From positions 62,001-126,000 of the forward strand of contig FUZG01000006.1 of NCBI GenBank assembly GCA_900168235.1: a stretch of 64,000 nt of DNA, given 5' to 3'. The translations under genes and the position numbers were made by a program. Origin of the DNA: Lachnospiraceae bacterium. GTDB lineage: Bacteria > Bacillota > Clostridia > Lachnospirales > Lachnospiraceae. Of the stretch, positions 48,931 through 64,000 are shown piece by piece (the first letter of the stretch is position 1; every line of letters begins with the position of its first letter). The notes below the pieces were generated by a model. The model had not been told where the DNA came from. It saw nothing but the letters and a program-made list of their open reading frames with translations, and searched no databases.

Positions 48931-48950
48931 GGCAATAGGAGCGTAACACC

Positions 48951-49445: not shown

Positions 49446-49455
49446 AGGAGATATC

Positions 49456-50700
49456 ATGGGACACACAATGATAGAAAAGATCATCGCTCACAATGTAGGG
49501 CATGAAGTAAAGCCCGGAGACATTGTGACGGTTGATGTGGATTATGTGATGCTGGACGACATCATGATGCCGTTCATCGTTTCAAAATTTAAGGAAATGG
49601 GATTCAGCAAGGTCTGGGACCCGAAAAAAACTGTTATCATCTGCGATCATCTGGTGCCTGCGAGTCAGGTAGACGATACCCGAGCATATCATATAAGCTG
49701 TGACTTTGCGAAGGAGCAGGAGATACCGAATCTCCACAGAAGTGACGGCATCTGCCATCAGCTCATGACTGAGGCTGGTTATGTAAAGCCGGGACACGTG
49801 GTATTTGGTACTGACAGCCACACTACGACCTATGGCTGCGTAGGAGCTTTTTCATCAGGAATCGGCTACACAGAGATGGCATCCATCCTTGGAACAGGAC
49901 AGCTTTGGATCCGCGTGCCGTCCACGATAAAGGTAAATATCACGGGAAAGCTTCCGTCAAATGTCATGAGTAAGGATGTTATCCTGAAGATCATCGGAGA
50001 CCTGACAGCTGCGGGAGCAACATACAAAGCGCTTGAGTTTACGGGTGATACTGTAGAAAACATGAGTGTTTCATCCCGAATGACCATGACAAATATGGCT
50101 ATCGAAGCAGGCGCTAAGTGCGGTCTTTTTGCACCGGATGAAAAGACGGCAGAGTACTGCGAGATCGAGCTGGATGATTTCCAGAAGAACTTAAAGGGTG
50201 ATGATGACGCGGTTTACGAGCAGGTACTGAACTACCGTGCTGAGGATTTTGTACCTGTGATGGCTGTTCCGTCTAATGTCGATCACTGCGTTCCGATTTC
50301 AGAGATCGGAGATGTGAAGGTGGACCAGGTCTTCCTTGGTTCATGTACAAATGGCCGTCTTGAAGACCTGATGGCAGCGGCAGAGGTACTTAAGGGTAAA
50401 AAAATTGCACCATTCGTGAGATTTATCGTGACTCCGGCAAGCCGTAAGGTTTATCAGGAAGCTCTTCAGAACGGCACTCTGGATATCCTCCTCGATGCAG
50501 GAGCTGATATCACCCATCCGTCATGCGGTCTCTGCTGCGGAAGAACAGGCGGTATCCTTACTGACGGAGAAGTTGTGGTTGCCACAAATAACCGGAACTT
50601 CCTCGGACGAATGGGTACAAATAAAGTAAATATTTATCTTGCTTCACCTAAATCTGCTGCAATGTCTGCACTTACAGGAAAGATTTCAGCAGCGGAATAA
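49456..50700 (+). CDS. Aconitase-family hydro-lyase large subunit (LeuC-like), second pair
   Basis: 414 residues with FGTDSHTTTYGCVGAFSSGIG, canonical GSCTNGRLEDL, and HPSCGLCCGRTGG at the second and third cluster Cys (again not the CGPC of standard LeuC). GICHQLM near residue 101 matches GVCHQVM in the first large subunit. Closer to standard LeuC than the first copy, but still atypical. AAAGGAGAT precedes the ATG. Last gene of the operon; a perfect terminator follows. Confidence 0.84.
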   Translation: MGHTMIEKIIAHNVGHEVKPGDIVTVDVDYVMLDDIMMPFIVSKFKEMGFSKVWDPKKTVIICDHLVPASQVDDTRAYHISCDFAKEQEIPNLHRSDGICHQLMTEAGYVKPGHVVFGTDSHTTTYGCVGAFSSGIGYTEMASILGTGQLWIRVPSTIKVNITGKLPSNVMSKDVILKIIGDLTAAGATYKALEFTGDTVENMSVSSRMTMTNMAIEAGAKCGLFAPDEKTAEYCEIELDDFQKNLKGDDDAVYEQVLNYRAEDFVPVMAVPSNVDHCVPISEIGDVKVDQVFLGSCTNGRLEDLMAAAEVLKGKKIAPFVRFIVTPASRKVYQEALQNGTLDILLDAGADITHPSCGLCCGRTGGILTDGEVVVATNNRNFLGRMGTNKVNIYLASPKSAAMSALTGKISAAE

Positions 50701-50764: not shown

Positions 50765-50781
50765 TTTTTTGTCCGATATAT
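50765..50781 (+). promoter_or_regulatory. Second copy of the 17-base motif before a signalling gene
   Basis: TTTTTTGTCCGATATAT, identical to 7367-7383 and again directly downstream of a terminator, 39 bases before the ATG of the Cache receptor. If it is a -10 region, the transcript would begin near 50787. Confidence 0.4.
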
Positions 50782-50819
50782 ATTTAAGATTCTCATTAAA
50801 GGATGAAGGGGTACTGCAT

Positions 50820-52289
50820 ATGAGAAATTTAAAAGTCAGGACAAAAATGATCCTTATAGTCGGATTATCTGTTTTCAACATGTTCATAATAATCCTGATG
50901 GCTCTGTTCGCTATAACAGCTCTCGATAAGATCTCTACAAATAAACTCCGTGAATCTATCATGGAGGACTATGACCAGAGGATTAAAGAGCAGGTTGAAA
51001 ATGCTTCGTCCATGGTAGATGGAGTAATGGCTATGGCGGATAATGGAGATGCTACCAGAGAAGAAGCACTGGAATATGCTGCAAGAGCGCTGAGAGATAT
51101 CCGTTATGGCGAAGACGGTTATTTCTGGGCTGATACCATTGAGGGTACAAATGTGGTGCTGCTCGGTTCTGATACAGAAGGTACCATGCGATTGCATGCA
51201 AAGGATGCAGATGGATTTGAATTTGTATCAGCTATCATCAATGCCGCAAAAAGAGGCGGAGGATATGTTGATTATAAATTTGCAAAGGAAAATGGAACAA
51301 CGCCTTTTCCTAAAAGAGCATACAGCCTCTTAAATGAAAAGACAGGCTGGGTCATCGGAACAGGTAACTATATTGACGATATGGAAGTTGCCATACAGGA
51401 AGAAACCCAGTATATGCAGAAGAGGATAATGGCTGTAGGCATGCTTCTTTTTGAAACTTCGCTTTTCCTGGCAGTGCTCACGTTTGTTTTAGCTCGCGGT
51501 ATTTCAAAGTCGATACTCAGCGCATTGAGAACCAGCTTTTCTTATATAGAAAGTATGGCGGGCGGAGATTTTACCACCGAGATTTCAGAGGAGATGCTTG
51601 AGCGTAAGGATGATTTCGGAAAACTTGCGGAAGAGCTGGAGTTTTTGAAGGATTCTATTGGAAAACTAATTAAAGATATCAAGGTCATGGCTGAAACCGT
51701 TGAAGAGAATAATGACGAAGTGGACGCGGGCTTTGCAAAGGTGCGCTCCGATACGGATGATGTGTGCCAGAATATTGAGAACCTTTCAGCAATCTTTGCA
51801 GAAACTGCCGCATCAATGGATCAGTTCACAGAGTTTGCCCTGAATGTAGGAAAATGCACAGCCGGACTGTATGATAAGACAAATGATGCTGTAGAGAAGA
51901 TATTTGAACTTCATAGAAAGATCGATATAGACCGAAATAAAGCTTTCGGTAAAAACAATCTGAATCAGGATGGTGATGAGAAATCCAAGGCGGACCAGAA
52001 AGAGTTTCTGGAAGAAAGCATGGAGTATGAAAATTACGTTGATGAAGCTCTTGCTGATATTGAGCACACGTCCGCAGAACTTCGTGAAGATATGGAATCA
52101 CTCATGGCATCCATCGGTCAGATAAGCGATGTGAGCGGTCAGGGTTCAATCGGCGTAGACAGTATCGAGGACAGTATCCTAGCTATCAGGGAAAAAATAG
52201 CCGAACTCGAAGAGTCATTTAAGAATACAGAGGAAATGGTCTTTGAGCTCGACTATGAAGTCGCAAAATATGCAGTTAGAGATAAATGA
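50820..52289 (+). CDS. Cache-domain membrane receptor lacking the chemotaxis signalling tip
   Basis: Senses a small ligand outside the cell. The ATG at 50820 follows GATGAAGGGG; the in-frame TTG at 50769 lies inside the putative promoter. Transmembrane segment at about 10-33, an sCache_2-type domain (about 40-180) with YGEDGYFWADTIEGTNVVLL and YSLLNEKTGWVIGTGNYIDD, second transmembrane segment (about 190-210), then a HAMP-like linker and a long acidic coiled-coil region. The methyl-accepting hairpin tip is missing (no EAARAGE-type motif), and I see no kinase, GGDEF or EAL domain. It may signal through a partner or be a decayed chemoreceptor. Confidence 0.82.
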   Translation: MRNLKVRTKMILIVGLSVFNMFIIILMALFAITALDKISTNKLRESIMEDYDQRIKEQVENASSMVDGVMAMADNGDATREEALEYAARALRDIRYGEDGYFWADTIEGTNVVLLGSDTEGTMRLHAKDADGFEFVSAIINAAKRGGGYVDYKFAKENGTTPFPKRAYSLLNEKTGWVIGTGNYIDDMEVAIQEETQYMQKRIMAVGMLLFETSLFLAVLTFVLARGISKSILSALRTSFSYIESMAGGDFTTEISEEMLERKDDFGKLAEELEFLKDSIGKLIKDIKVMAETVEENNDEVDAGFAKVRSDTDDVCQNIENLSAIFAETAASMDQFTEFALNVGKCTAGLYDKTNDAVEKIFELHRKIDIDRNKAFGKNNLNQDGDEKSKADQKEFLEESMEYENYVDEALADIEHTSAELREDMESLMASIGQISDVSGQGSIGVDSIEDSILAIREKIAELEESFKNTEEMVFELDYEVAKYAVRDK

Positions 52290-52313: not shown

Positions 52314-53720
52314 TCATGTAAGAGATATGGGCGAAGAAACCTTTCTGACTTTCATATTAAAGGGTTCGTGGGCGGCACAGCTGAGTACGTGAGTGTCATC
52401 GATGACCGAGCTTTCTGTGTGCCATCCGTCCATAAATGAAGGGTCAGATCGGGGGTCCAGCATAAAGCCTGTTCCGTGGGCTTTCAGCACGGCTTCGACC
52501 TTTGTCCAAAATTTTGCACGTGTTGTCTGATCACTGTTTTTTTCAATATGTTCATAATCCGCAGGGGGAAGAACTCTTTTTAGTACGGGAAGAGTGATTC
52601 TCTCTGCGTTTTCTATGTCTGCACCTATTGGAATAGGGCTCACTGCGAGAACGACATAGTTGTCGCTGTGGGAGATGCTGAAATCCGTGCAGTTACCTTC
52701 ATAGTCACCGCTCAGCTGGGGTCTTCCGTATTCGTTAAAGGTAAGAGCAGAGTCGTCCTTTAATTTCAGATATTTTGACAAAAGGTATCCCGCACCCAGT
52801 TCCTGAAGTTTATTTTCTTCAATAGAAGCGTCCTGATATTTCTCTCTGTAGCATGAAGGGATGAGTGGAAGTAGTTCGTTTTCGATCCCTTTCAGAAATT
52901 CTATGTCGAGTACATAAACTGTGACACGAGGAGCTTCGGGATTTTCGGAGAGGATAAGTCCTACAGGTTCAGGGGTTGCCGTATGTACATAAAAATATCC
53001 TTCGGCGTAGGGAGGTCTGGGATACATATATTTGTGAAAACGTTTTTTTCCTAAATTTGTTAAACAGTCAGCCATGACAGAGAGGAGCTCTTTGGGGTAG
53101 AGTTTATCACTGTGAGCTGTGGCAAAGTGCCGGAAATCAAGAGTCTGCACGTTTTTTACCGTGGCAAGCTGTTCTTCAGCAGTGCCGTGATTAGCAAATA
53201 TGAGACACATTATGGGGCTCAGGGAATCGCCCGCGAGGAAAAGCTCCAGCTCAGGCAGAAAAATGCCCACAGATCCTGTACTGTGCCCCGGAAGAGGGAT
53301 GATCTTTCCTGTGATATCGCCGAGAGAAAAGCTGTCGAAGTCAAGGTTTTCGAAATTAGCGCAGTGGTTTAGGTCAAGGGCAGGATTCTGCACCCATTCC
53401 CGAAGAACATCCATATCATAATTTTCCACCATTTCCCTGTCGTATTCTGAAATGTAAACTTTTTCAAACTGACTGCTTCCGCCGACATGGTCAAAGTGGC
53501 CGTGGCTTACGATCACAAGGAGCGGAAGGTCTGTTACAGCCTCGACTGCGCTTTTCAAATCATCTGAACCGCATCCTGTGTCAAACAGCAGAGCTTTTTT
53601 GCTTCCGATGATGAGCTCGCAGTAGGTATCAAAACGGTCCTTCAGCATGTAGAAACGGTCATTTATTTTTATAGTCTGTATCCCCGGGATGATGGGGGTT
53701 TTTCTTTTTGAACGGATCAT
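52314..53720 (-). CDS. Fusion of a metallo-beta-lactamase-fold hydrolase and a 4'-phosphopantetheinyl transferase
   Basis: The N-terminal half is an MBL-fold metallohydrolase with the metal motif SHGHFDHVGG (H73, H75, D77, H78), LPGHSTGSVG and AGDS. The C-terminal half (about 260-455) is a Sfp/AcpS-type PPTase: ISHSDNYVVLAVS, IGADIENAER with the Mg-binding Asp, and FWTKVEAVLKAHGTGF, the W-x-x-(K)EA-x-x-K helix. PPTases convert apo carrier proteins to holo form; the acyl carrier protein at 62718 is an obvious client. The ATG at 53720 has GAAAGG seven bases upstream; the longer frame would use TTG. It follows the PucR-type regulator by 21 bases on the same strand. Confidence 0.85.
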   Translation of the reverse strand: MIRSKRKTPIIPGIQTIKINDRFYMLKDRFDTYCELIIGSKKALLFDTGCGSDDLKSAVEAVTDLPLLVIVSHGHFDHVGGSSQFEKVYISEYDREMVENYDMDVLREWVQNPALDLNHCANFENLDFDSFSLGDITGKIIPLPGHSTGSVGIFLPELELFLAGDSLSPIMCLIFANHGTAEEQLATVKNVQTLDFRHFATAHSDKLYPKELLSVMADCLTNLGKKRFHKYMYPRPPYAEGYFYVHTATPEPVGLILSENPEAPRVTVYVLDIEFLKGIENELLPLIPSCYREKYQDASIEENKLQELGAGYLLSKYLKLKDDSALTFNEYGRPQLSGDYEGNCTDFSISHSDNYVVLAVSPIPIGADIENAERITLPVLKRVLPPADYEHIEKNSDQTTRAKFWTKVEAVLKAHGTGFMLDPRSDPSFMDGWHTESSVIDDTHVLSCAAHEPFNMKVRKVSSPISLT

Positions 53721-53741
53721 GTTAAAACCTTTCAAAGATCA

Positions 53742-55268
53742 TCATTCGCTTTTTATCCCGTCAAGGAGACGGAGTGAATACTCGTAGGAAAAAAGCGCGT
53801 CGCTGTCGTCGAGCTTTATATTAAAGAGCTGCTTCATTTTGTCAAAGCGGTAGAAGAGCGTTGACTTATGAATGAAGAGGGCAGCGGCGGTAGCAGGAGC
53901 GTTTCTGTTATTTTTTAGGTAAGTCCTGAGCGTAGAAATATAGTTTGTGCCGTTAAGCTCGTCGTGTTTTTTCATGAACTTTATTGATGGGTTCACGGAT
54001 GCAGAAACGAGCGCGGTTTTATTCAGTGTGCTGAGGATGTGTTTCAGGTAATGGTCGTTGTAGTAGATCACAGGTGACTCATTAAAAATATTTAGTCTCT
54101 GGGACAGCAGACCCTGACACTGGGCGTAATATGCGTAACTTTCTGTGAGGCTGTCATAAACGTGACTCACTGTGGCTATCATGTTATTCATGGTGAGGAA
54201 CGTTTTCAGTCTTTTCAGGGTGTTTGGTTCCATGGGTTCCATGGTGTCGGTGGGTATCAGAGTCACGAATCTGCTTCCGAAGATTCCGGTCACGCTGTTT
54301 GTGAAGATACCGGATAACTGCTGGATATAGTGATGATAAGCCATGAGTCTCGCTGTATTTTTTGTAAAACTGCATATTATCATGCAGTAGAAAGCCTTGG
54401 GCTTTACGCCGAGGAGTGACAGCTGTTCTACGGCAAGTGTTTCATCGTAATACCGTTCAAAGAGTTCCTTAAGGAACATATCGTATTTAATGCCGTGAGG
54501 ATTTCTGTAGCTGTCGTCTTTCTGAAGCTGGATCGATACCATCTGAGCCAAAGCGTGGACCAGATCAAGGTCATTTTCCGTATGTGGTCTTTCGCTGCAT
54601 CGTACACAGATATATCCCACAACAGCATGCTTTATCCTGATACTCTCAAAAATCCACTGATACGGATAGTCGTCAAATTTTGCAGCAAAAGGATATACGG
54701 AGTGGTAAATGCGTTCCGTGATCTTTTTCTGTTCCATATCCTCCGTATAACGGGAACGGACAGTCAGACGGTTATTTTTGATCTCAAGATTCTGGCTGTC
54801 ATTAAGCTCGGGAAATGATGAAAGAATACCGTAACTGCTGTCGCAGACCATGATGGGATTATTCAGATATTTGTAGGCTGTTTTCAGAAGAGTTTCAAGA
54901 CCGTAACCATTATGCAGGATACTGAATAGATTCTGCTTCTCCACATCTATCCGTCGATAGGACAGTATCGCGTCTTCACATGTATTGAAAAGATCTATGA
55001 GGTCAATGTCCTCATCTATATAAAAAACGTCTGATAAAGGCGTATCTCCGTGAGCTCCGGTGAACAGCACATCGCCGTATACTTCACACTTTCCGTATTT
55101 TGAAAAGGAAGCCAGATAAAGAACATTTGGCGACAAGTGTTCAATGTTGGCATCGTTATCATTGAAGAAATGTATTCCGTCAGTTGTACGTCTATTCGGG
55201 CGGCTTCCGTGAACTTTTATGCCGTATTTCTTTTCCAAAGAGTCAATAATATCTGATAAATAAGCCAT
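53742..55268 (-). CDS. PucR/CdaR-type transcriptional regulator
   Basis: A 508-residue DNA-binding regulator. The C-terminus carries the PucR helix-turn-helix: TLRTYLKNNRNAPATAAALF, then IHKSTLFYRFDKMKQLF. The N-terminal two-thirds has a GAF-like/ligand-binding layout (NNPIMVCDSSYGILSSFPEL) but no diagnostic PucR N-terminal domain. Such regulators normally control the adjacent divergent catabolic operon in response to its substrate. The ATG at 55268 follows AGGGGAATATAGAGAA; a longer frame would use TTG. A palindrome at 55330-55351 overlaps its likely -35 (TTACTT, then TACAAT), suggesting autoregulation. Confidence 0.85.
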   Translation of the reverse strand: MAYLSDIIDSLEKKYGIKVHGSRPNRRTTDGIHFFNDNDANIEHLSPNVLYLASFSKYGKCEVYGDVLFTGAHGDTPLSDVFYIDEDIDLIDLFNTCEDAILSYRRIDVEKQNLFSILHNGYGLETLLKTAYKYLNNPIMVCDSSYGILSSFPELNDSQNLEIKNNRLTVRSRYTEDMEQKKITERIYHSVYPFAAKFDDYPYQWIFESIRIKHAVVGYICVRCSERPHTENDLDLVHALAQMVSIQLQKDDSYRNPHGIKYDMFLKELFERYYDETLAVEQLSLLGVKPKAFYCMIICSFTKNTARLMAYHHYIQQLSGIFTNSVTGIFGSRFVTLIPTDTMEPMEPNTLKRLKTFLTMNNMIATVSHVYDSLTESYAYYAQCQGLLSQRLNIFNESPVIYYNDHYLKHILSTLNKTALVSASVNPSIKFMKKHDELNGTNYISTLRTYLKNNRNAPATAAALFIHKSTLFYRFDKMKQLFNIKLDDSDALFSYEYSLRLLDGIKSE

Positions 55269-55329
55269 TTCTCTATATTCCCCTAGATATAACAATATGA
55301 ATAATTGTATCAGACATTTGTCGGAAAAG

Positions 55330-55351
55330 TAATGTTAAATTTCTAACATTA
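55330..55351. promoter_or_regulatory. Candidate operator palindrome in the divergent PucR/operon control region
   Basis: TAATGTTA and TAACATTA are perfect inverted arms around a six-base spacer. It lies 62 bases upstream of the regulator ATG, over its likely -35, and ahead of a weak plus-strand promoter (TTGGAT at 55364, ATGATA 17 bases on). Binding by the adjacent regulator is inferred. Confidence 0.45.
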
Positions 55352-55401
55352 TCTGACTGTATGTTGGATGAATATCAATACATCGGATGATAAAGTGGAC
55401 C

Positions 55402-55674
55402 ATGTCAGGGTCAAAAGGTACAAATCCGATTGTGCTTGCACAAAGAGGATTTGGAACTTGGGACCCGCAAAACACGAGCACGTAGCGCTGTTGCGCGGAG
55501 TGCGAGTGTTTTAGAATCGCGAGAGCTGCGAAGCAGCGAAGCGATTCGTGACATTGTCAGGGCAAAAGGTACAAATCCGATTGTGCTTGCACAAAGAGGA
55601 TTTGGAACTTGGGACCCGCAAAACGCGAGAGCTGCGAAGCAGCGAAGCGATTCGTGACATTGTCAGGGCAAAAG
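55402..55674 (+). repeat. Tandem structured repeat (two full units and one partial) in the leader of the reductase-kinase operon
   Basis: Unit 1 is 55403-55554, unit 2 is 55555-55660, and a partial third is 55661-55674. Each starts TGTCAGGG(T)CAAAA and ends TTCGTGACAT, so the ends pair (TGTCA/TGACA). Inside are nested stems: GGGTC with GACCC, AAATCC with GGATTT, TTGTGC with GCACAA, and GCTGC with GCAGC. Unit 2 lacks a 45-base internal segment and one T found in unit 1; otherwise they are nearly identical. A short form lies at 62624-62665. The open frames across this repeat are by-products. Confidence 0.75.
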
Positions 55675-55713
55675 CCCCAAAAGAATTAATGAAAGCTTTA
55701 AAGGAGAAATCAA

Positions 55714-56658
55714 ATGGGAATCAAGGTAATGGGGGTTACTTCCGGAAGAAAGAACAGCAATAGTGAGATCCTTCTGAAAGAAGCGCTGATCGCTTGTGAA
55801 GAAGCAGGTGCAGAAGTAACGATGATCAATCTTCGCGATTATAACATTCTCGACTGCACAGGATGCACATCCTGCACTATCGGAATGTCACAGGGAAAGA
55901 ACACAGGATGCGTTCTTGATGAGAAGGATGATAAGAAAAAGATCATGGATGTACTTCTGAATCAGGACGCTGTTATATATTCCGTTCCGACATATGATCT
56001 GATGCCGTCCGCTAACTATCTGGCATTTGCACAGAGAAGTCTTAGTTATGAAACAGCATTTCTTGAGACTATCGGCGCTATCGAGCATCGAGACAGAGTT
56101 GCAGGACTTATTTCTGTAGGTGGTTCTACACGTGCATGGCAGTCAATGGCATTAGAGGGTATGCAGGCAACAATGTTTACAACAGATATGAAGGTTGTAG
56201 ATATGATCCTCGCAACAAGAGTTCCGGGACCTGCACAGTGCCTGCTCAATGATGAGCTTATCGCACGCGCTCACAAGATGGGTGAGAACATCATGAAAGC
56301 AGTTAAGACACCTGTTGAAGAGAGAAAGTGGCTCGGTGACGAGGATATGGGATGGTGCCCGAACTGTCACTCAAATGCACTTGTTCTCGGTGAGCCTCAG
56401 TGGGACGGTCTTCACTATCCGATCGAGTGTCAGGTATGCGGTGCAGGTGGAAACCTTGAGAAGACAGAGGATGGTAAATGGAAGTTTGTCATTCAGGAAG
56501 ATGGCCTCTTAAAGGACAGAACAACGGTTGAGGGACGCGCAAGACATCTTGAAGAGATCGGACGCACACAGGGCGGATTCTTCGCAAATCCTGAGAACAG
56601 AGAGATCGTAGGAAAGAAGATCCTTAGATACAAGGAAAAGAATTTTAAGGGTATCTGA
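55714..56658 (+). CDS. Iron-sulfur flavoprotein-like NAD(P)H/FMN reductase with C-terminal zinc ribbon
   Basis: Probably an FMN electron-transfer protein feeding the operon's reductase. A flavodoxin-like fold of the NADPH-dependent FMN reductase family (residues 1-190) carries a compact Cys cluster CTGCTSC (C48, C51, C54) plus C66, close to the 4Fe-4S motif of archaeal iron-sulfur flavoprotein but with a longer last gap. The C-terminal third adds a zinc-ribbon-like pair WCPNCHSN and CQVCGAGG, unusual for the family. AAGGAG lies seven bases before the ATG. It is the first gene of the operon; the next begins 17 bases after its stop. Confidence 0.82.
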   Translation: MGIKVMGVTSGRKNSNSEILLKEALIACEEAGAEVTMINLRDYNILDCTGCTSCTIGMSQGKNTGCVLDEKDDKKKIMDVLLNQDAVIYSVPTYDLMPSANYLAFAQRSLSYETAFLETIGAIEHRDRVAGLISVGGSTRAWQSMALEGMQATMFTTDMKVVDMILATRVPGPAQCLLNDELIARAHKMGENIMKAVKTPVEERKWLGDEDMGWCPNCHSNALVLGEPQWDGLHYPIECQVCGAGGNLEKTEDGKWKFVIQEDGLLKDRTTVEGRARHLEEIGRTQGGFFANPENREIVGKKILRYKEKNFKGI

Positions 56659-56675
56659 TAAACGGAGGAAAGAAA

Positions 56676-58169
56676 ATGAAACAGTTAAATGCAGACGTAA
56701 TCGTAGTTGCAGCAGGACTTTCAGGTCTCGCAGCAAGCATCGCAGCCGCTGAGAACGGCGCAAGCGTTATCACATTTGAGAAGTCATCAACAACAGGCGG
56801 AGCAGCAAACATGGGAATGGGACCTCTTGGTGTAGGTTCAAGGATCCAGAGAGAGCACATGATCTCCCTTACACCCGGTGAAGCATTCCGTAAGCATATG
56901 TATTTCACTCATTACAAAGTAGACGCAAGAATGGTAAGAGACTATTACTTCAAGTCCGGTGATACCATCGACTGGCTCATGGACATGGGTGTTGAGTTCG
57001 TAGGTGTTCAGAGAGCATTCAGCGCACCTGAGGCAACACGTGCATATTCCGACGGTGAGTTCACATGGCACGTAGTTAAGCCCGAAGACGGCGGTATGCC
57101 GGGACCCAGATGCGCAACTGCCATGACAAAGAAGATGACAGAGAGAGCAAAGGATCTCGGAGTAGATTTCCAGTTTGAGACTCCTGTAAAGAAGATCATC
57201 ATGGAGGACGGCGCAGCAGTAGGTGTCATCGCTGTTGATAAGAACGGTGAAGAGATTGAAGCACGTGCAAATGCAGTCATCATCTGCACAGGCGGTTTCG
57301 GTGACAACCCGGAAATGATCAAAGAGCAGACAGAGTTTGAGTACGGCAATACTATCTACAACTTCGCGATCCCGGGAATGAAGGGCGAAGGTATCAAGAT
57401 GGCATGGGAAGCAGGAGCAGGCAAAGAGCCCTGCATCATGGAGCTCATGTACCAGCTTCCTGACAACATGAATCACTTCATTCTTGACGGCGCATTCCGT
57501 CAGCCCTGCCTCTGGGTAAACAGAAACGGTCAGAGATTCATGCCTGAGGATCAGATCGCAAATACAACATTCACAGGTAATGCCATCGCAGCTCAGCCGG
57601 GCAAGGTAGCATATGCGATCTTCGACAGCAAGCTCCTTAAGAAGTATAAGAAAAAGGGTCCGGATATCGTTTCACACGTTCATCCTCATGACCTCTTTGA
57701 TCACTTCGATGAGCAGTGGGAGAGAGATCTTGCTGATGGATATGAGCCTATCGCACAGGCTGATACTATCGAGGAACTTGCTGAAAAGGCGGGTATCGAT
57801 GTAGAAGGACTTGTAGCTCAGATCGAAGAGTACAACGAAATGTGTGAAGCAGGATATGATGAGATCTTTGAAAAGGACCGCGCATACATGCAGCCTATCG
57901 AGAAAGCTCCGTTCTATCTCTGCCGTGAAAATGTAGGTGCATACGGTTCACTTGGCGGTGTAAAGATCAACCACAAGACTCAGGTTCTCACACAGGACGC
58001 AAAGGTTATCCCGGGACTTTACTGCGCAGGAACAGACGCATGCAATATCTTCGGAGACAGCTATCCGTTCATCCTGTCCGGAAACACAATGGGCTTCTGC
58101 CTGAACAGCGGACGTATCGCTGGTGAAAATGCTTCTGCCGGTTCAGAAGATTTCGATGATTTCGAGTAA
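56676..58169 (+). CDS. FAD-dependent reductase of the fumarate reductase/ketosteroid dehydrogenase flavoprotein family
   Basis: Likely the catalytic reductase (or dehydrogenase) for an unsaturated organic substrate. At 497 residues without a signal peptide or heme motifs it is a soluble single-domain flavoprotein. FAD-binding landmarks: AAGLSGLAASIAAAENGASV (an Ala replaces the first Gly of GxGxxG), FEKSSTTGGAANMGMG, VIICTGGFGDNPEMI, and the C-terminal PGLYCAGTDACNIFGDSYPF. GAYGSLGGVKINHKTQVL matches the active-site region of the family. Electron donors are probably the flavoprotein before it and the Fe-S proteins after it. GGAGG precedes the ATG. The substrate cannot be read from sequence. 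Confidence 0.85.
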   Translation: MKQLNADVIVVAAGLSGLAASIAAAENGASVITFEKSSTTGGAANMGMGPLGVGSRIQREHMISLTPGEAFRKHMYFTHYKVDARMVRDYYFKSGDTIDWLMDMGVEFVGVQRAFSAPEATRAYSDGEFTWHVVKPEDGGMPGPRCATAMTKKMTERAKDLGVDFQFETPVKKIIMEDGAAVGVIAVDKNGEEIEARANAVIICTGGFGDNPEMIKEQTEFEYGNTIYNFAIPGMKGEGIKMAWEAGAGKEPCIMELMYQLPDNMNHFILDGAFRQPCLWVNRNGQRFMPEDQIANTTFTGNAIAAQPGKVAYAIFDSKLLKKYKKKGPDIVSHVHPHDLFDHFDEQWERDLADGYEPIAQADTIEELAEKAGIDVEGLVAQIEEYNEMCEAGYDEIFEKDRAYMQPIEKAPFYLCRENVGAYGSLGGVKINHKTQVLTQDAKVIPGLYCAGTDACNIFGDSYPFILSGNTMGFCLNSGRIAGENASAGSEDFDDFE

Positions 58170-58188
58170 AAAGAGGTTTTGATACAAA

Positions 58189-60276
58189 ATGAAGATTTTT
58201 ATTGACGGAAAGGAAATAGAAGCTTCAGAGGGCGCGTCAGTTCTTGACGCAGCCCTTGAGGCAGGTGTTTTTATTCCACATTTATGTTCACATCCCGATC
58301 TGGAAGCAAAGGGAGGATGCCGTCTCTGCTCAGTTGAGATCGAGGGAATGGAAGGCGCACATCCTGCCTGCAAGACAGAAGTCACAGAGGGAATGAAGAT
58401 CACCGTAAACGGTCCCGAAGCAGAAAAAGTGCGAAAGACCGCAATGGAACTGATCCTTGCGACTCATCCCGCTGACTGCACAGGCTGTCCTAAGTACGGA
58501 AAGTGCGAGCTCCAGTCCATGTATCAGTATATGGGCGTGAGTCCTGAGAGATGGAGAAAGAAGTCCAGAGCAGTTCCCAACGATGAAAGTAATCCGCTCA
58601 TTTCACACCTTTTCACGAGATGCGTCCGCTGCGGCAGATGTATCCGTGCGTGTCAGGAAATGAGGGGCGTAAAAATACTTGATTACATAAAGACAGGTGC
58701 GGGTATCAGAGCAGGCGTACCTGACGGAAAATCTCTCGCAGAAGCAGGATGCAGATTCTGCGGTGCATGTATCGAAGTTTGTCCTACAGGTTCCATCATG
58801 GATGCATTTAACTTAATGAAGCCTGAGAGAACCTATGAAGAGAATGTGGTTCCTTGCAGAAGCACATGTCCTGCACATATCGATATCCCGGAATACATCA
58901 GAGCCATCAAGGAAGGAAACTTTGATAAAGCGGCAGCTATCATCAGAGAAAAAGTTCCGTTCCCTGAAACTCTTGGATCAGTATGTACAAGAAATTGTGA
59001 GAGTAACTGTAAGAGAGGCGAGCTGAATTCACCTGTTTCCATTTGCAGGCTCAAGAGAGCAGCAGCTACAGTTGAGAGCGGTGCGTGGAAGGAAAGAGTG
59101 AGAAAAGATCCTGCGACAGGTAAAAAAGTTGCAGTGATCGGTGCAGGTCCTTCCGGACTCACAGGTGCTTATTATCTTGCAAAGAAGGGCCATGATGTAA
59201 CTGTTTTTGAGAAAAATGCAAAGGCAGGCGGCCAGTGCAGATACGGAATCCCGGCATACAGACTTCCGGACGAACTTCTTGACAGAGAGATAAGTACGAT
59301 CCTTGAAGCAGGTTTTGAATTAAAAACTTCTGAAGCGGTTGAAGAACCTTCAAAGCTTTTGGATGAAGGCTATGATGCAGTTCTCGTATCCATCGGAACA
59401 CATCAGGGAACAAAGCTTCCAATCGATGGAAATGACCTTGAAGGAGTATATGTAAACGCTGACTTCCTGAAAGCTGCAAGAGAGGGAAATCCTCTTCCTG
59501 TAGGTGAAAAAGTAATGGTGCTTGGCGGCGGAAACGTGGCATATGACTGCGCACGTACTGCGATCAGACAGGGTGCTAAGGAAGTTCATATCGCATGTCT
59601 CGAGAATCTTCAGCAGATGACATCATCAGAGGATGAGAGAAAAGAAGGCGAAGAAGAGGGAGTGATCCTTCACGCAGCTCATTCATTCCTTCGCATCACA
59701 GGAGACACAAAGGCAACAGGTGTAGAACTCCAGAAGGTAAACAAGTTCTATTTTGATGAGAACAGAAAAGCGATCATCGAGCTTGAAGAAGGATCAAATC
59801 AGATAATCGACGTTGATAACGTGATCTTTGCCGTCGGACAGAAGCCGTCAGGCACAGAAAAAATGGGCGTCGAGCTCACACACGGTCCGTATATCGCAGC
59901 AAAGGATCATGCAACAAGCGTTGAGGGAATCTTTGCATCAGGTGACGTTGTGACAGGAACAAGATCTGTTATCGAAGCGATAGCAGGAGGAAGAGAAGCC
60001 GCCATCGCGATCGACAAGTATCTCGGAGGAGACGGTGACATCAGTGAAGTACTGACAGACCGTGAAGCTCCTGAGAAATACATCGGACGTGTGGAAGGCT
60101 TTGCAGGTCTTGAAAGAACAGAGGCTGAGATCATGTCTGCTGATAAGAGAAAGTGCGGATTTGATGCTATCGAGAAGCCGCTCACCTGTGAACAGGCAAA
60201 GTGCGAAGCAGGACGATGCCTGCAGTGTGATCTTAGAACAACCATATCCAAAGTGAAGCTTTGGAACGAGTACTGA
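58189..60276 (+). CDS. NAD(P)H-linked electron-transfer flavoprotein: NuoG-like Fe-S domains fused to a GltD-type module
   Basis: A 695-residue redox hub, cytosolic. Order: 2Fe-2S ferredoxin domain (C33, C44, C47, C61); His-Cys3 4Fe-4S site (H93, C97, C100, C106); two 4Fe-4S sites (CVRCGRCIRAC, CRFCGACIEVCP); then a GltD/NfnB-like module with its own Cys motifs (CRSTCPAHIDIPEYI, CTRNCESNCKRGE), FAD site VAVIGAGPSGLTGAYYLAKK and a second dinucleotide site VMVLGGGNVAYDCARTA, ending with CEAGRCLQCD. The N-terminal part matches NuoG/HydA-type proteins without any hydrogenase or molybdenum domain. It probably takes electrons from NAD(P)H and passes them along Fe-S centres to the FAD reductase. Confidence 0.88.
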   Translation: MKIFIDGKEIEASEGASVLDAALEAGVFIPHLCSHPDLEAKGGCRLCSVEIEGMEGAHPACKTEVTEGMKITVNGPEAEKVRKTAMELILATHPADCTGCPKYGKCELQSMYQYMGVSPERWRKKSRAVPNDESNPLISHLFTRCVRCGRCIRACQEMRGVKILDYIKTGAGIRAGVPDGKSLAEAGCRFCGACIEVCPTGSIMDAFNLMKPERTYEENVVPCRSTCPAHIDIPEYIRAIKEGNFDKAAAIIREKVPFPETLGSVCTRNCESNCKRGELNSPVSICRLKRAAATVESGAWKERVRKDPATGKKVAVIGAGPSGLTGAYYLAKKGHDVTVFEKNAKAGGQCRYGIPAYRLPDELLDREISTILEAGFELKTSEAVEEPSKLLDEGYDAVLVSIGTHQGTKLPIDGNDLEGVYVNADFLKAAREGNPLPVGEKVMVLGGGNVAYDCARTAIRQGAKEVHIACLENLQQMTSSEDERKEGEEEGVILHAAHSFLRITGDTKATGVELQKVNKFYFDENRKAIIELEEGSNQIIDVDNVIFAVGQKPSGTEKMGVELTHGPYIAAKDHATSVEGIFASGDVVTGTRSVIEAIAGGREAAIAIDKYLGGDGDISEVLTDREAPEKYIGRVEGFAGLERTEAEIMSADKRKCGFDAIEKPLTCEQAKCEAGRCLQCDLRTTISKVKLWNEY

Positions 60277-60290
60277 TGAGGAGGAATTAA

Positions 60291-60863
60291 ATGAACAGCA
60301 CAGAGAAGATCAAAGGATTAAAAGAAGATCAGTGCGTAGTTGATGTCCTTCTCAAAGAAGTCGAGAACCATCCCTGCAAAGACTGCGGGAAATGCGTTTT
60401 TGGATATGAAGGAATCACACAGCTTGAAATGATCCTTAAAGATATTACTGAAAAGAAAGGGCGCAGCGCAGATAAAGATCTCTTAAATGACCTCTGTCAC
60501 ATGATGAAGACACAGTCACTCTGTGAAGACGGTGAAGAGATCGCTGATGCGGTAAAAGAGGCTCTTAACACATATGGGGAAATTTTTGACGAGCATATTT
60601 CTAAAAAGGGATGCCGCGCCGGAGTCTGCAAGAAGTTCATGACCTATCACATCCTTGCCAGCAAGTGCGTTGGATGCGGTGAGTGTATGGATGTCTGCGA
60701 AGACGATGCGATCCTTGGAAAGATAAAATTTGTACATGTCATCGATCTTTCCGAGTGTACTCTCTGCGGTAAGTGCATGAATGCCTGTGATGAAGACGCG
60801 ATCGTCATGGCAGGTGCAAAGAAGCCGAAGTGCCCCACAAAACCTATTCCGTGCAAACGATAA
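60291..60863 (+). CDS. NuoF C-terminal-like Fe-S domain fused to a 2x[4Fe-4S] ferredoxin
   Basis: A 190-residue electron carrier. The first half is only the tail domain of NuoF/HydB: PCKDCGKCVFGYEGITQLEM (C29, C32, C35) with TQSLCEDG (C78), the fourth ligand, but with no FMN- or NADH-binding domain. The second half is a ferredoxin with CVGCGECMDVC and CTLCGKCMNAC. It likely docks on the preceding Fe-S flavoprotein, completing a wire. GAGGAGG precedes the ATG; it lies 14 bases behind its partner gene. Confidence 0.85.
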   Translation: MNSTEKIKGLKEDQCVVDVLLKEVENHPCKDCGKCVFGYEGITQLEMILKDITEKKGRSADKDLLNDLCHMMKTQSLCEDGEEIADAVKEALNTYGEIFDEHISKKGCRAGVCKKFMTYHILASKCVGCGECMDVCEDDAILGKIKFVHVIDLSECTLCGKCMNACDEDAIVMAGAKKPKCPTKPIPCKR

Positions 60864-60877
60864 AAATGAGGTAAACT

Positions 60878-62185
60878 ATGAAAACTTTTGGAAAATATTC
60901 AAGAAGTGTATCTATCATCGGTGTTGGATGCACACCCTTTATGTATACGGTTGATAAAGAGGAAACAAACGGACTTACTGAAGGAGAACTCTTTGGTTAT
61001 GCGGCTCTGAAAGCAATGGAAGACGCAGGCGTAAATCCGCAGGACGTTGATTTCTATTTCCATGGATGTGCGAGCCCGCTCAACGGTTCAAACTACCTCA
61101 CACCGAATGTACAGATCGCAAACTGGTTCGGTATGAAGGGAAAGGGTTCTATTCACCATTCCGAGGCATGTTGTACAGGATATCTCGCTATAGAGCAGGC
61201 TGTAAATGCAGTAGCTTCCGGAAAATATGACTGCGTACTTACAGGCGCTGTTGAGTTTGGTGACAGCACACCGAGCCCGGCAGACAATGTAGAGTCACCG
61301 AAGCACCCGTATAAGCGTGACAAGATGACTATGGAGAAGTTCCTTAAAACAACTTCATGGTTATACGATCGCACATATACCAGAAGCCTTATGGCAGGTC
61401 AGGAACTTATCTATGATGACGCTGCTGAGTGGTATGTGAGGACCAGAGGTATTTCCGATGAGGATATGAACCGCACACTTAATGCTATGTGTGTAAATAA
61501 CAGGAGAAATGCATCTGTAAACCCTCTTGCTATCGAGAGAAAGACTTACGAGGAACTGGCAGAGGAAGCAGGAATGACTCTTGATGAGTACATGAACTCT
61601 CCATACAACCCGAAGATGGGTGATTTCCTCCGTGCAGGCGGTTTGGAGCTTAAGTGCGACGGTGCTGCAGCATGTATCGTATGCGCTACAGAAAAGATCC
61701 CTGAGATCGCAAAGAATCTGAAGCACAAGCCTATCGAGGTTGTTGGTATCGGAAGCGCAGCATGCGAAGCAACTACACCTCACTTTGAAGTAAGAGCTAC
61801 AGAGGAAGCAGTTCGTCAGGTTTACGAGTCAACAGGTCTCTCAGGAGATGATCTGGATCTCTTCTTTGCTAATGACTTTATCATCACATCCCATCTGGTA
61901 TCTGCTGAGATCGCAGGATATCTGCCCTATGGCGAAGGATGGAAATACATCTGCGACGGACGTACAGCATGGGACGGCGATAAGCCCATCAACTCCAACG
62001 GCGGAAGAACTTCCTTCGGACATGCACATGCTGCATCAGGTCTTGCTGATATGTATGAAGCGTGTAAGCAGATGTGGAATGAGTGCGGCGACCGTCAGGT
62101 AAAGAAACTGCCGAAGACAACAATGCTCCGTGGTTACGGCGGTGCACAGAATGTCGCAGCTATCATCATCAGGACTATGGACTAA
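60878..62185 (+). CDS. Thiolase-fold enzyme of the SCP2/lipid-transfer type, partner of DUF35
   Basis: Makes or breaks a carbon-carbon bond next to a thioester. The 435 residues contain the nucleophile region HHSEACCTGYLAIEQAVNAV (C98 or C99), VLTGAVEFGD, the C-terminal NGGRTSFGHAHAASGLADMY (catalytic His) and GYGGAQNVAAIIIR. Enzymes of this group work with a DUF35 zinc-ribbon/OB-fold partner, which is the next gene. Known pairs include archaeal acetoacetyl-CoA thiolase/HMG-CoA synthase, the actinobacterial steroid retro-aldolase Ltp2-ChsH2 and the phloroglucinol acyltransferase PhlCB; which chemistry applies here is not evident. GAGGT precedes the ATG. Confidence 0.85.
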   Translation: MKTFGKYSRSVSIIGVGCTPFMYTVDKEETNGLTEGELFGYAALKAMEDAGVNPQDVDFYFHGCASPLNGSNYLTPNVQIANWFGMKGKGSIHHSEACCTGYLAIEQAVNAVASGKYDCVLTGAVEFGDSTPSPADNVESPKHPYKRDKMTMEKFLKTTSWLYDRTYTRSLMAGQELIYDDAAEWYVRTRGISDEDMNRTLNAMCVNNRRNASVNPLAIERKTYEELAEEAGMTLDEYMNSPYNPKMGDFLRAGGLELKCDGAAACIVCATEKIPEIAKNLKHKPIEVVGIGSAACEATTPHFEVRATEEAVRQVYESTGLSGDDLDLFFANDFIITSHLVSAEIAGYLPYGEGWKYICDGRTAWDGDKPINSNGGRTSFGHAHAASGLADMYEACKQMWNECGDRQVKKLPKTTMLRGYGGAQNVAAIIIRTMD

Positions 62186-62203
62186 CAGGGAGGCGTGATA
62201 ACC

Positions 62204-62626
62204 ATGGCAATAAAGTTGGAAAAGATCGTTGAGAAATTTTATTTATCCCTGGAAGAGGGAAAGATCATGGGACGCAAGTGCCCGAAGTGCGGACATGTGG
62301 AGTTTCCGCCTGTATATGCATGCAACGAGTGCGGAAACTACGAGACTGAGTGGGTTGAACTGAGCGGAAAGGCAAAGCTTCACTCCATCGTTCTCCCGGC
62401 AGCACTTTCTTCAAAGCCTGAGTACAAAAAAATGGGCAAGTTCGCTTACGGCGAAGTGGAGATCGAAGAGGGCACAAGACTCAATGCAGTTGTACGCGGC
62501 ATTAGCAAGAAGAACAGAAAAGAGCTTGCTGAGAAGCTTCCGCTTAACATCCACGCATCTATCATCGACCGTGACGGCGGATTTAAGACAGTGATCTTTG
62601 ATCTGGATGATGAGTACCTCAACTGA
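62204..62626 (+). CDS. DUF35 zinc-ribbon/OB-fold partner of the thiolase-like enzyme
   Basis: 140 residues: rubredoxin-like zinc ribbon C26, C29, C40, C43 (KCPKCG / CNECGN), then an OB-fold with AALSSKPEYKKMGKFAYGEV. DUF35 proteins bind the CoA or acyl-thioester end of the substrate for their thiolase partner. I chose the ATG at 62204, ten bases after GGGAGG; the GTG at 62195 sits one base from it. Its stop codon is part of the repeat hairpin at 62624-62665. Confidence 0.85.
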   Translation: MAIKLEKIVEKFYLSLEEGKIMGRKCPKCGHVEFPPVYACNECGNYETEWVELSGKAKLHSIVLPAALSSKPEYKKMGKFAYGEVEIEEGTRLNAVVRGISKKNRKELAEKLPLNIHASIIDRDGGFKTVIFDLDDEYLN

Positions 62627-62665
62627 TGTCAGGGTCAAAAACCGAAGATACGGTTCGTGACATCA
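62624..62665 (+). repeat. Short form of the TGTCAGGG...TGACAT structured repeat, between DUF35 and ACP genes
   Basis: TGATGTCA pairs with TGACATCA, with an inner AACCG/CGGTT stem. Its first 14 bases after TGA (TGTCAGGGTCAAAA) and its last ten paired bases (TTCGTGACAT) are identical to unit 1 at 55403-55554, while the interior differs. There is no T run, so it is not a classic terminator. Confidence 0.7.
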
Positions 62666-62717
62666 TTAAATGATTGATATACATAAATTTGAACATAGAC
62701 AGACAGGAGAAAAAACA

Positions 62718-62957
62718 ATGGAAAGACAGGAAATCGTAGAGCAGGTATTAAACATGGTAGCAATGTCCTATAAGAAGGACGTAGCAGAGCTTTCAGAGGC
62801 AACTTCTTTTAAGACAGACCTTAACGGTGCATCCGTACAGATGGTAGCACTTGTTTCTGAGATCGAGAACGAGCTGGATGTAGCTCTTATGCTTTCTGAT
62901 GCAAGCGGATGTGAGACTATCGCAGATCTTATCAACCTCATTGAAGAAGAGATGTGA
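62718..62957 (+). CDS. Acyl carrier protein
   Basis: 79 residues, strongly acidic, with the ACP four-helix pattern. The phosphopantetheine attachment Ser is probably S39 in LNGASVQMVALVSEIENEL, where typical fatty-acid ACPs have DSL; Ala precedes and Val follows the Ser. That divergence marks it as a dedicated carrier rather than the housekeeping AcpP. AGGAGA precedes the ATG at 62718; an upstream in-frame ATG at 62670 begins just after the repeat. The PPTase fusion on the opposite strand is its likely activator. Confidence 0.85.
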   Translation: MERQEIVEQVLNMVAMSYKKDVAELSEATSFKTDLNGASVQMVALVSEIENELDVALMLSDASGCETIADLINLIEEEM

Positions 62958-62966
62958 GAGGCAGAC

Positions 62967-63971
62967 ATGAGTGTAATTGACAAGATTTTTGAAAAAGCAA
63001 AGCTTGATCCTCAGAGAGTAGCTTTTCCGGAAGCACTCAATGAGAAAATGATGCAGGCAGCTTATGAGGCAGGCTCTGAAGGTTATATCAAGCCGATCCT
63101 CGTAGGTGATGAGGCTGAGATCAGAGCAGCTATCGCAGAGCGCGGCTACAACGAAGAAGTATTCAGCATAGTTGATATCAATAATGAAGAATACAAGGCT
63201 ATGCTCGTTGAGAAATATACATCACTACCTGAAACAAGACTTAAGGAAAAGGCTCTCAGACGCCGTATGGAAGATAGGCTGCAGTTTGCAATGGTAATGC
63301 AGGCGTCAGGTGAAGCTGATGTAACTTTTGCAGGTATCGACTACACCACAGGTGATGTACTCCTTGCGGGTCAGATGATCATCGGACTGAAGCCCGGCAT
63401 CGCAACTATTTCAAGTATCGGTCTCTGCGACATCCCGGGATATGAGGGAAGCGAAGGCTCACTCCTTGCAGTAGGCGACAGCGCAGTGTGCACTAACCCT
63501 AATGCGGAGCAGCTGGCAAGCATCGCCATTTCCGCATGCGATACAGTAAAGTCACTTCTTGACTGGGAGCCGAGATGCGCATGTGTAAGCTATTCAACTC
63601 TCGGAAGCGGTCAGGGTGAACTTATCGACAAAGTAACAGAAGCAGTAAAGATCGCAAATGAACTCCGGCCGGATCTCGCGATCGACGGTGAATTCCAGCT
63701 GGATGCAGCTATCAATCCTGAAGTTGCAAAGAAAAAGGTTGGTCGTGAGAGTAAGGTTGCAGGACAGGCAAACGTAGTTATCTGGCCTGATCTCAATGTT
63801 GGAAATGTAGCGGTAAAGCTTATCCAGCAGTTTGGTCATGCAAATGCTTACGGTCCTATGCTTCAGGGCTTTAATAAGGTCGTTTGCGACTGTTCCAGAA
63901 GCGCTCCGGTTTCAGAGATCAAGGGAAATATCGTGATCAGTGCAGTAAGAGCCGCAGGAGAAAAAAGATGA
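62967..63971 (+). CDS. Phosphate acetyl/butyryltransferase family enzyme
   Basis: Converts an acyl thioester plus phosphate to acyl phosphate and free thiol. 334 residues with the Pta/Ptb landmarks FAGIDYTTGDVLLAGQMIIG, SYSTLGSGQGELIDKV and PDLNVGNVAVKLIQQFGHAN, then GPMLQGFNKVVCDCSRS. Family membership is sure; whether the acyl group is acetyl, butyryl or something else, and whether the thiol is CoA or ACP, is not. Its stop overlaps the following kinase ATG by four bases, so acyl phosphate is passed on to make ATP. Confidence 0.88.
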   Translation: MSVIDKIFEKAKLDPQRVAFPEALNEKMMQAAYEAGSEGYIKPILVGDEAEIRAAIAERGYNEEVFSIVDINNEEYKAMLVEKYTSLPETRLKEKALRRRMEDRLQFAMVMQASGEADVTFAGIDYTTGDVLLAGQMIIGLKPGIATISSIGLCDIPGYEGSEGSLLAVGDSAVCTNPNAEQLASIAISACDTVKSLLDWEPRCACVSYSTLGSGQGELIDKVTEAVKIANELRPDLAIDGEFQLDAAINPEVAKKKVGRESKVAGQANVVIWPDLNVGNVAVKLIQQFGHANAYGPMLQGFNKVVCDCSRSAPVSEIKGNIVISAVRAAGEKR

Positions 63972-64000
63972 AAGAGTATAAGGTTTTAACAATTAATCCG
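63968..64000 (+). CDS. buk: Butyrate/acyl kinase, first 11 codons (runs off the window)
   Basis: Only MKEYKVLTINP is visible, which matches the conserved start of butyrate kinases (...LTINPGSTSTK). The ATGA overlap with the phosphotransacylase gene is the usual ptb-buk arrangement. The call rests on 11 residues plus context. Confidence 0.6.
   Translation, partial: MKEYKVLTINP

Follow-up and report, generated by a model that had tools for sequence, protein, structure and literature searches.

The end of the window (the whole stretch of 64,000 nucleotides from a Lachnospiraceae bacterium that we analysed) carries an operon for a flavoprotein, a FAD enzyme, an electron-input protein, a ferredoxin, a thiolase with a DUF35 partner, an acyl carrier protein (ACP), a phosphotransacylase (PTA) and a butyrate kinase (BUK). 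We consider it probable that this operon is a reductive, energy-conserving route for flavonoid-type polyphenols, that is, a variant of flavonoid degradation. More specifically, and with about even chances of being right, we propose an ACP-dependent thiolytic cleavage of an aryl ketone (a retro-Friedel-Crafts reaction) which would be coupled to the formation of acyl phosphate and ATP and would replace the energy-wasting hydrolysis by phloretin hydrolase, with an electron chain of the type needed by the flavone reductase FLR encoded in the same operon. Such a combination would be previously undescribed. The ACP as acceptor and the gain of ATP are the boldest parts of this proposal, whose acceptor, substrate and direction we infer. 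An earlier note on this DNA knew of no described pathway with this set of genes, and none was found in our full-text literature searches, which largely covered the literature outside subscription. That note had suggested reduction, thiolytic cleavage, substrate-level phosphorylation and a dedicated ACP, with phenolics among the candidate dietary substrates. The evidence favours this outline, although the note had left the substrate class open and called the flavoprotein Isf-like; flavonoids are indicated by the kinship with FLR, the C-glycoside-deglycosidase neighbourhoods and the PF18089 genes of three thiolase-less loci.

The gene set is real and conserved, and not due to chance. The ten genes named earlier all correspond to open frames at 52314-63971 with matching Pfam domains, and, as the earlier note suspected, the operon continues past 64000 with a butyrate kinase (TIGR02707). 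We define as the core the thiolase, DUF35, ACP, PTA and BUK genes. Scanning genomes with the thiolase yielded 140 pattern matches, of which 132 were relatives; the best 80 of these relatives were kept (77-99% identity). Genes were called in the fetched loci with codon scoring (G+C-rich loci carry antisense frames), and a gene was counted as near when it lay on the same strand, within three genes before to six after the thiolase. The DUF35 gene directly follows the thiolase in 72 of the 80 loci and is fused to it in four more (L081, L082, L087 and L088, with frames of 581-587 aa); in the remaining four, which lack a DUF35 call, the contig ends within 184 bp. The ACP gene is near in 73 loci, and in the other seven the contig ends after 703 bp or less. 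For PTA the count is 67 and for BUK, which stands either last or ahead of the thiolase, it is 64. DUF35, ACP, PTA and BUK all accompany the thiolase in 56 loci; the misses of PTA and BUK are caused partly by contig ends and partly by the gene being elsewhere or outside the stretch. The same 80 loci contain an FLR-type gene (of the ISF or N10 family) in 47 cases, the FAD enzyme in 33, the electron-input protein in 36, the ferredoxin in 36 and a phosphopantetheinyl transferase (PPTase) or metallo-beta-lactamase-fold (MBL) gene in 26. The conservation of gene order in relatives, on which the earlier note had staked its proposal, was thus found.

Regarding the spread of the core, record titles and the tree-tool taxonomy place it in Lachnospiraceae, Oscillospiraceae, Erysipelotrichaceae, Eubacteriaceae, Clostridiaceae and metagenome-assembled genomes of Chloroflexota, many of them from the rumen or the gut of herbivores. 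The nearest named loci belong to Lachnospiraceae MA2020 (thiolase 99% identical) and Butyrivibrio VCD2006 (98%). The set is patchy, because the thiolase (E 1e-25) and DUF35 (E 1e-8) each occur in only one of the 391 genomes of the class sample; in the other genome collection, the one that yielded the 132 relatives, it is widespread. Distant versions, such as a thiolase with 50% identity in L123, are undercounted, because the scan used one protein and caught close relatives only. A thiolase search against plasmids matched 480 records, all with less than 60% identity. Within 61 relatives of the genus, the core thiolase is present in the genome of the window and in three others (G009, G014 and G031); a fifth match, in G053 (L008), is a 34% relative with a different neighbourhood and was not used.

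The strongest clue to the substrate comes from three loci in which the same reductive module appears to be followed by an aryl-ketone hydrolase in place of the thiolase core. We analysed nine loci with the FAD enzyme and without the core thiolase, namely eight of the ten FAD matches in six class genomes plus that of G033 (L120), and in three of them a gene of PF18089, the PhlG/phloretin hydrolase family, lies beside the module. The order is PF18089 (E 8.8e-68), regulator, ISF-type flavoprotein (74%), FAD enzyme (85%), electron-input protein and ferredoxin in L143; PF18089 (E 6.7e-77), ISF-type flavoprotein (61%), FAD enzyme (80%), electron-input protein and ferredoxin in L144; and PF18089 (E 1.4e-63), MFS transporter, FAD enzyme (57%) and ISF-type flavoprotein (26%) in L146. 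Further genes of L143 encode cupin, SDR, PF04199 cyclase, BKACE and thiolase proteins and, by reading, CoA-transferases. No PF18089 gene turned up in the 87 thiolase-bearing loci when these were searched by tblastn (1e-6) with the PF18089 proteins of L143, L144 and L146, a search that recovers the known PF18089 loci L094 and L095. Some of the 87 cover one place twice (for example L010/L019, L011/L016, L012/L018, L043/L136 and L076/L135), and L139 is the same place as L144. Genome-wide, 17 of 19 core genomes, including that of the window, have no PF18089, and the six thiolase-negative class genomes were searched for it in their fetched stretches. In a tree of the FAD enzyme made with a quick method, the fork that holds L143 has 11 rows, nine of them thiolase-linked (support 86, not starred), the one that holds L144 has 27 rows, 24 of them thiolase-linked (support 91, not starred), and L146 forms a long basal branch.

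The neighbourhoods provide a second clue. CGDB (C-glycoside deglycosidase, PF19906), confirmed in L092 with E 4.4e-39, occurs in G033 and in 23 of 29 core-bearing genomes, these being the genome of the window, which has it, and 28 reached through the 80 loci. Eleven stretches of core-bearing genomes (L121-L131) have the FAD, electron-input and ferredoxin genes unlinked to the core, and CGDB is present in L121, L122, L123 and L126. In L135 the thiolase, DUF35, kinase, FAD, electron-input and FLR-type genes lie with two CGDB genes within 20 kb. The kinship with FLR, these deglycosidase neighbourhoods and the PF18089 genes beside the module together point to flavonoids. Three further observations concern these regions. 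In G033, which belongs to the genus of the window and has no core thiolase, CGDB, CGD alpha-like, Gfo/Idh, FLR-like and FAD genes form one cluster (L120:8103-18083). Small SnoaL-like proteins (N24) recur in L047, L123, L125-L128, L130, L145 and others and are candidates for a stand-in for chalcone isomerase. The thiolase-bearing locus L085 has, at 3-596, a BKACE-like fragment which shares 60% identity with its counterpart in the phloroglucinol-type cluster of L143.

The first gene of the operon, called Isf-like in the earlier note, is better described from its sequence as a member of the FLR family. Its sole PDB match at E up to 1 is 7d38, which is FLR (E 3.6e-30, residues 4-297, both domains, 29.4% identity). 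The reading as an iron-sulfur flavoprotein (Isf) was dropped because FLR is the only PDB match; the three Cys of the CTGC..C pattern are shared with FLR, and the term "iron-sulfur" is absent from the FLR paper (PMC7862272), in which the code 7D38 is found once. According to that paper, the activity of FLR was significantly reduced or eliminated by G106A, W149A, H271A and I275A, and H271 binds the 7-OH of the A ring; these four positions are G, W, H and I in 7d38. We aligned 35 ISF-type proteins (including that of the window and two linked to PF18089) and 24 proteins of N10, a second family found beside the core in 20 loci, whose L032 copy matches 7d38 with E 6.4e-82. The equivalents of W149 and H271 are conserved in all 35 ISF-type and all 24 N10-type proteins, and that of I275 in 35 and 22 of them respectively. 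FLR-family proteins are present in all 29 core-bearing genomes (best E at most 4.6e-25), even where they lie outside the core locus; the search thresholds were 1e-20 among the relatives and 1e-10 in the core-bearing genomes. As all these co-occurrence counts come from related genomes, the events are not independent.

The FAD enzyme shows the same association, with a homologue in 29 of the 29 core-bearing genomes (best E at most 1.2e-128), even where it lies outside the core locus. Among the 61 relatives the FLR family and the FAD enzyme occur together in just five genomes, namely G033 and the four with the core thiolase. The enzyme reaches 324 bits with the model of VprA, the vinyl phenol reductase (NCBIfam NF053717), which is under the cut-off of 600. 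The catalytic Arg/His/Arg of fumarate reductase we take to be R402, H504 and R544 of the Shewanella enzyme; the aligned positions are not Arg/His/Arg in the FAD enzyme, with the alignments judged by eye, and a dicarboxylate reduction of the fumarate/urocanate type was rejected. Concerning the source of electrons, PMC7862272 reports that FLR is unable to take NAD(P)H directly and that its electron chain is unknown. The NuoG/GltD-like protein and the ferredoxin of the operon would be natural candidates for this missing chain. Natural fusions of the ferredoxin with the FAD enzyme in L076 and L093 (906 aa) support an electron step from the former to the latter. As a separate observation, L043 (1995-3992, 666 aa, with Oxidored_FMN and Pyr_redox_2) and L036 have an Old-Yellow-type reductase between the FLR-type and FAD genes, a candidate flavanone-cleaving reductase.

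The thiolase is placed in the SCP2/DUF35 superfamily both by sequence and by fold search. It keeps the nucleophile Cys and the His listed in Table 1, whereas NDFI stands, in 30 of 30 rows, where SCP-2 thiolases have the HDCF motif (PMC12329534) with the second catalytic Cys of the canonical enzymes. In the DUF35 protein C29, C32, C43 and C46 are invariant in 14 rows. The structural model of the thiolase is of modest quality (mean pLDDT 68.6, pTM 0.75). The proposed chemistry has a precedent, because in PhlC, another member of this superfamily, Cys88 attacks the monoacetylphloroglucinol ketone and phloroglucinol is freed without CoA (PMC6392133). Nevertheless, we do not claim membership in PhlC, because the fold search gives SCP2/DUF35 thiolases without singling it out; for the PhlC active site (His56, Cys88, Tyr298 and His347) the comparison covered the Cys and the His of GH, both of which are present in the thiolase. 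A diverged set of ACP, thiolase (50%) and DUF35 (43%) lies at L123:11584-13584 beside FAD, electron-input, ferredoxin and C-glycoside deglycosidase genes; it is probably a paralogue with another substrate, and that genome also has the main core.

The phosphopantetheine Ser of the ACP is invariant in 78 of 78 sequences, and the protein matches the PP-binding domain. Different kinds of PPTase are found near the core, namely the MBL-fused form of the window, a separate Sfp-like form of 191-237 aa in eight loci, and N18, AcpS-like by sequence reading, in nine; the MBL half is likewise a gene of its own in 16 loci (247-279 aa). The recurrence of unlike PPTases beside the ACP therefore suggests that the pathway needs a working holo-ACP. 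The phosphotransacylase matches Pfam PTA_PTB with 296 bits and stays below the best NCBIfam equivalog/subfamily model (268 against a cut-off of 310), and the butyrate kinase exceeds the cut-off of TIGR02707 (366 bits against 289). No CoA ligase or CoA-transferase was found among the operon genes by open frames and Pfam.

These families can be arranged as follows. Electrons of NAD(P)H would enter at the NuoG/GltD-like protein and reach both the FAD enzyme and the FLR-family flavoprotein by way of the NuoF-tail ferredoxin. As these families and the PF18089 swap suggest, the ene-reductases would reduce the C=C of a substrate of the flavone or chalcone type, giving a dihydrochalcone or a similar acyl-phloroglucinol. 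The thiolase Cys would then attack the aryl ketone, and the phenolic ring (phloroglucinol or a derivative) would leave. The phosphopantetheine arm of the ACP would receive the aryl-acyl group (aryl-propionyl, or aryl-acetyl in the case of flavonols), thiolysis thus standing in the place of phloretin hydrolase. The phosphotransacylase could convert acyl-ACP to acyl phosphate, from which the butyrate kinase would form ATP and the free aryl acid. Finally, loading of the ACP would fall to the PPTase and removal of stalled acyl-ACP perhaps to the MBL domain, and the PucR-type protein presumably regulates the operon. Cleavage of the quercetin C ring, with phloroglucinol and dihydroxyphenylacetate as products, is attributed to species of Butyrivibrio and Clostridium in PMC8780962 (similarly in PMC9137580). 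A Catenibacillus species that has FLR, Fcr and CHI and lacks Phy is reported in PMC11170127.

Several observations weigh against this proposal. We know of no butyrate-kinase-type enzyme acting on aryl-propionyl phosphates. The identity of the flavoprotein to FLR is only 29%, the equivalent of G106 is Ser in 32 of the 35 ISF-type proteins (it is Gly in 20 of the 24 N10-type), and the FMN-contact positions 89, 91, 92 and 103 of FLR differ in the ISF-type. The closest solved relatives of the thiolase are not PhlC, as archaeal thiolases, SCP2 thiolases and BbsB score equally or better. The FAD enzyme is found at E 1e-80 in seven of the 391 class genomes, six of them without the core thiolase (E 1e-25), and 46 of the 87 thiolase-bearing loci have no FAD match over 200 bits in the fetched stretch. 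As for the swap, no PF18089 was found in the fetched stretches of L120, L145, L147, L148, L149 and L150, nor in the genome of G033 by a search over the relatives, which had no match anywhere and alone is not proof of absence, and in two of the 19 core genomes a PF18089 protein is encoded at a site apart from the core locus. The analysis identified no chalcone isomerase, no search aimed at one having been made. Furthermore, the cleavage in Butyrivibrio is called hydrolytic in PMC8780962, citing work of 1970, with an aryl-acetate as product.

Four other explanations were considered. In the first, the reductases turn phloroglucinol or resorcinol into cyclohexane-1,3-dione and the thiolase opens the ring onto the ACP. 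The type of chemistry is the same, the known pathway opens dihydrophloroglucinol hydrolytically (PMC10470551), and the phloroglucinol would be supplied by steps upstream. However, L143 has PGR/DPGC/BKACE-like genes alongside the same reductive module, so that the module is not needed for the ring-opening step there, and PF18089 is common to all three swap loci whereas the PF04199 cyclase is in L143 only. We regard this explanation as unlikely.

We consider it improbable, too, that the operon degrades the sugar half. C-deglycosylation yields 1,5-anhydro-hex-1-en-3-ulose, an enone that the FAD enzyme would reduce and the thiolase would cleave. The unlinked FAD, electron-input and ferredoxin genes of L121, L122, L123 and L126 do lie beside CGDB, AP_endonuc_2 and Gfo/Idh, and G033 has the FAD enzyme with CGDB and no core thiolase. 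Nevertheless, CGDB is missing in six of the 29 core genomes, homologues of CGDB, N54, N22 and N27 are absent from the fetched stretches of L143, L144 and L146, and it is the FLR-family proteins which accompany the core in all 29 genomes. An ordinary CoA-dependent beta-ketothiolase with a redundant ACP, acting for example on a beta-ketoacyl-CoA made elsewhere and with the acid kinase pair being generic, would fit the best PDB scores of the thiolase, which are those of CoA thiolases. This is equally improbable in our judgement, given that the operon genes include neither CoA ligase nor CoA-transferase, that the ACP keeps its Ser throughout with several kinds of PPTase beside it, and that the second catalytic Cys of HDCF is lost, with NDFI in every row. 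Lastly, a biosynthetic direction, with an acid that is loaded onto the ACP by the kinase and the phosphotransacylase and then condensed by the thiolase with a phenol or acyl unit, is very unlikely even though PhlC-type enzymes are able to acylate phloroglucinol and resorcinol (PMC6392133), because the alternative partner of the module is a hydrolase and the surroundings in relatives are those of a catabolic locus, with glycosidases, esterases, CGDB and transporters.

Table 1. Features of the locus at the end of the window.
Feature	Position	Strand	Basis
MBL-fold hydrolase fused to Sfp-type PPTase, 473 aa	52314..53735	-	Pfam Lactamase_B 2.5e-12, ACPS 6.7e-08
PucR-type transcriptional regulator, divergent	53742..55295	-	Pfam HTH_30 1.3e-16 (PucR HTH)
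Divergent promoter region with two overlapping/interleaved direct-repeat families	55409..55681	none	70 nt and 61 nt, 2 copies each
FLR-family flavoprotein (flavone-reductase-like ene-reductase)	55714..56658	+	Pfam FMN_red; PDB 7d38 match
FAD_binding_2 reductase	56676..58169	+	Pfam; nearest NCBIfam model VprA, under cut-off
NuoG-like Fe-S and GltD-like NAD(P)H/FAD electron-input protein	58189..60276	+	Pfam Fer2_4/NADH-G/Fer4_20/Pyr_redox_2
NuoF-tail and 2x[4Fe-4S] ferredoxin	60291..60863	+	Pfam NADH_4Fe-4S and 2x Fer4
SCP2/DUF35-type thiolase	60878..62185	+	Pfam Thiolase_C_1; C99, H382, N332-D333-F334
DUF35 protein with Zn ribbon	62204..62626	+	Pfam zf-ChsH2; numbered from GTG at 62195
Acyl carrier protein, dedicated	62718..62957 (open frame from 62670)	+	Pfam PP-binding 7.3e-07
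Phosphotransacylase	62967..63971	+	Pfam PTA_PTB; under cut-off of all ten NCBIfam models listed
Butyrate kinase, start	63968..64000	+	Runs on to G000:C9:127080, L002:3080

The repeat copies in the promoter region are 97% (70 nt) and 93% (61 nt) alike, and an operator duplication or a mobile repeat are the candidates for their origin. PucR-type regulators related to that of the window adjoin the gene set in other loci as well (clusters REG.14, 13 loci, and N12, 18 loci). The window corresponds to G000:C9:62001-126000, and beyond it the butyrate kinase is followed by a DUF1097 membrane protein (L002:3084-3590) and then by a xylanase, identified by reading the translation. Among the genes that repeatedly accompany the core are those for small membrane proteins (DUF1097, DUF2798; L002:3084-3590 and cluster N15) and for an MFS transporter (N11), which are candidate transporters of polyphenols or aryl acids. 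On the other side, a 506-aa cache/HAMP chemoreceptor-like protein (50769-52289, by reading) adjoins the MBL-PPTase gene, and 47683-50700 encodes, to judge by the translations, an unusual dehydratase set with a duplication, in which one LeuD-like small subunit stands between two aconitase/LeuC-like large subunits.

If the proposal is true, gut and rumen bacteria would gain ATP at the C-C cut of flavonoids, and this would help to account for the benefit of degrading polyphenols in the gut. The C-ring cleavage attributed to Butyrivibrio (PMC8780962) would then have candidate genes, as would the electron chain of FLR left open in PMC7862272, and the thiolase/DUF35 superfamily would gain a new reaction. 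Furthermore, there would be new marker genes for surveys such as that of PMC11170127, which would count a genome without Phy as incomplete because their scoring rests on FLR, CHI, Fcr and Phy.

Among the known systems, the phloroglucinol cluster of Clostridium scatologenes, which opens the ring hydrolytically (PMC10470551), has SDR, cyclase, BKACE, thiolase and CoA-transferase genes; genes of these kinds adjoin the reductive module in L143 and are not in the operon of the window. With Ptb-Buk and Pta-Ack the operon shares a phosphotransacylase and a kinase of the butyrate family, whereas the acyl donor here would be acyl-ACP and the phosphotransacylase is under the cut-off of the NCBIfam pta/ptb models listed. 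BbsAB, the benzoylsuccinyl-CoA thiolase, is likewise a two-subunit thiolase/DUF35 enzyme and cleaves a substrate containing an aryl ketone. However, BbsAB is CoA-dependent, whereas the operon has an ACP and no CoA ligase, and its NCBIfam scores are far below the cut-offs (93 against 750 and 27 against 250). PhlABC/CsATase also combines a thiolase-fold subunit bearing a nucleophilic Cys with a DUF35 subunit, and catalyses CoA-independent acyl transfer to and from phloroglucinol (PMC6392133); among the operon genes, which the search covered, there is no PhlA/HMGCS-like gene and hence no third subunit, the similarity is remote (profile E 2.5e-14), and the operon differs in its dedicated ACP, its acid kinase and its catabolic context. 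Finally, the pathway of FLR, CHI, Fcr (EnoR) and Phy in Flavonifractor plautii and Eubacterium ramulus (PMC7862272, PMC10470551, PMC11170127) has in common with ours an ene-reductase of the FLR family, C-deglycosylation genes and, in our proposal, the end products phloroglucinol and an aryl acid. Here, however, Phy is replaced by the thiolase, DUF35, ACP, PTA and BUK, the operon has its own NuoG/GltD-ferredoxin input and a VprA-like FAD enzyme, and energy would be conserved at the C-C cleavage.

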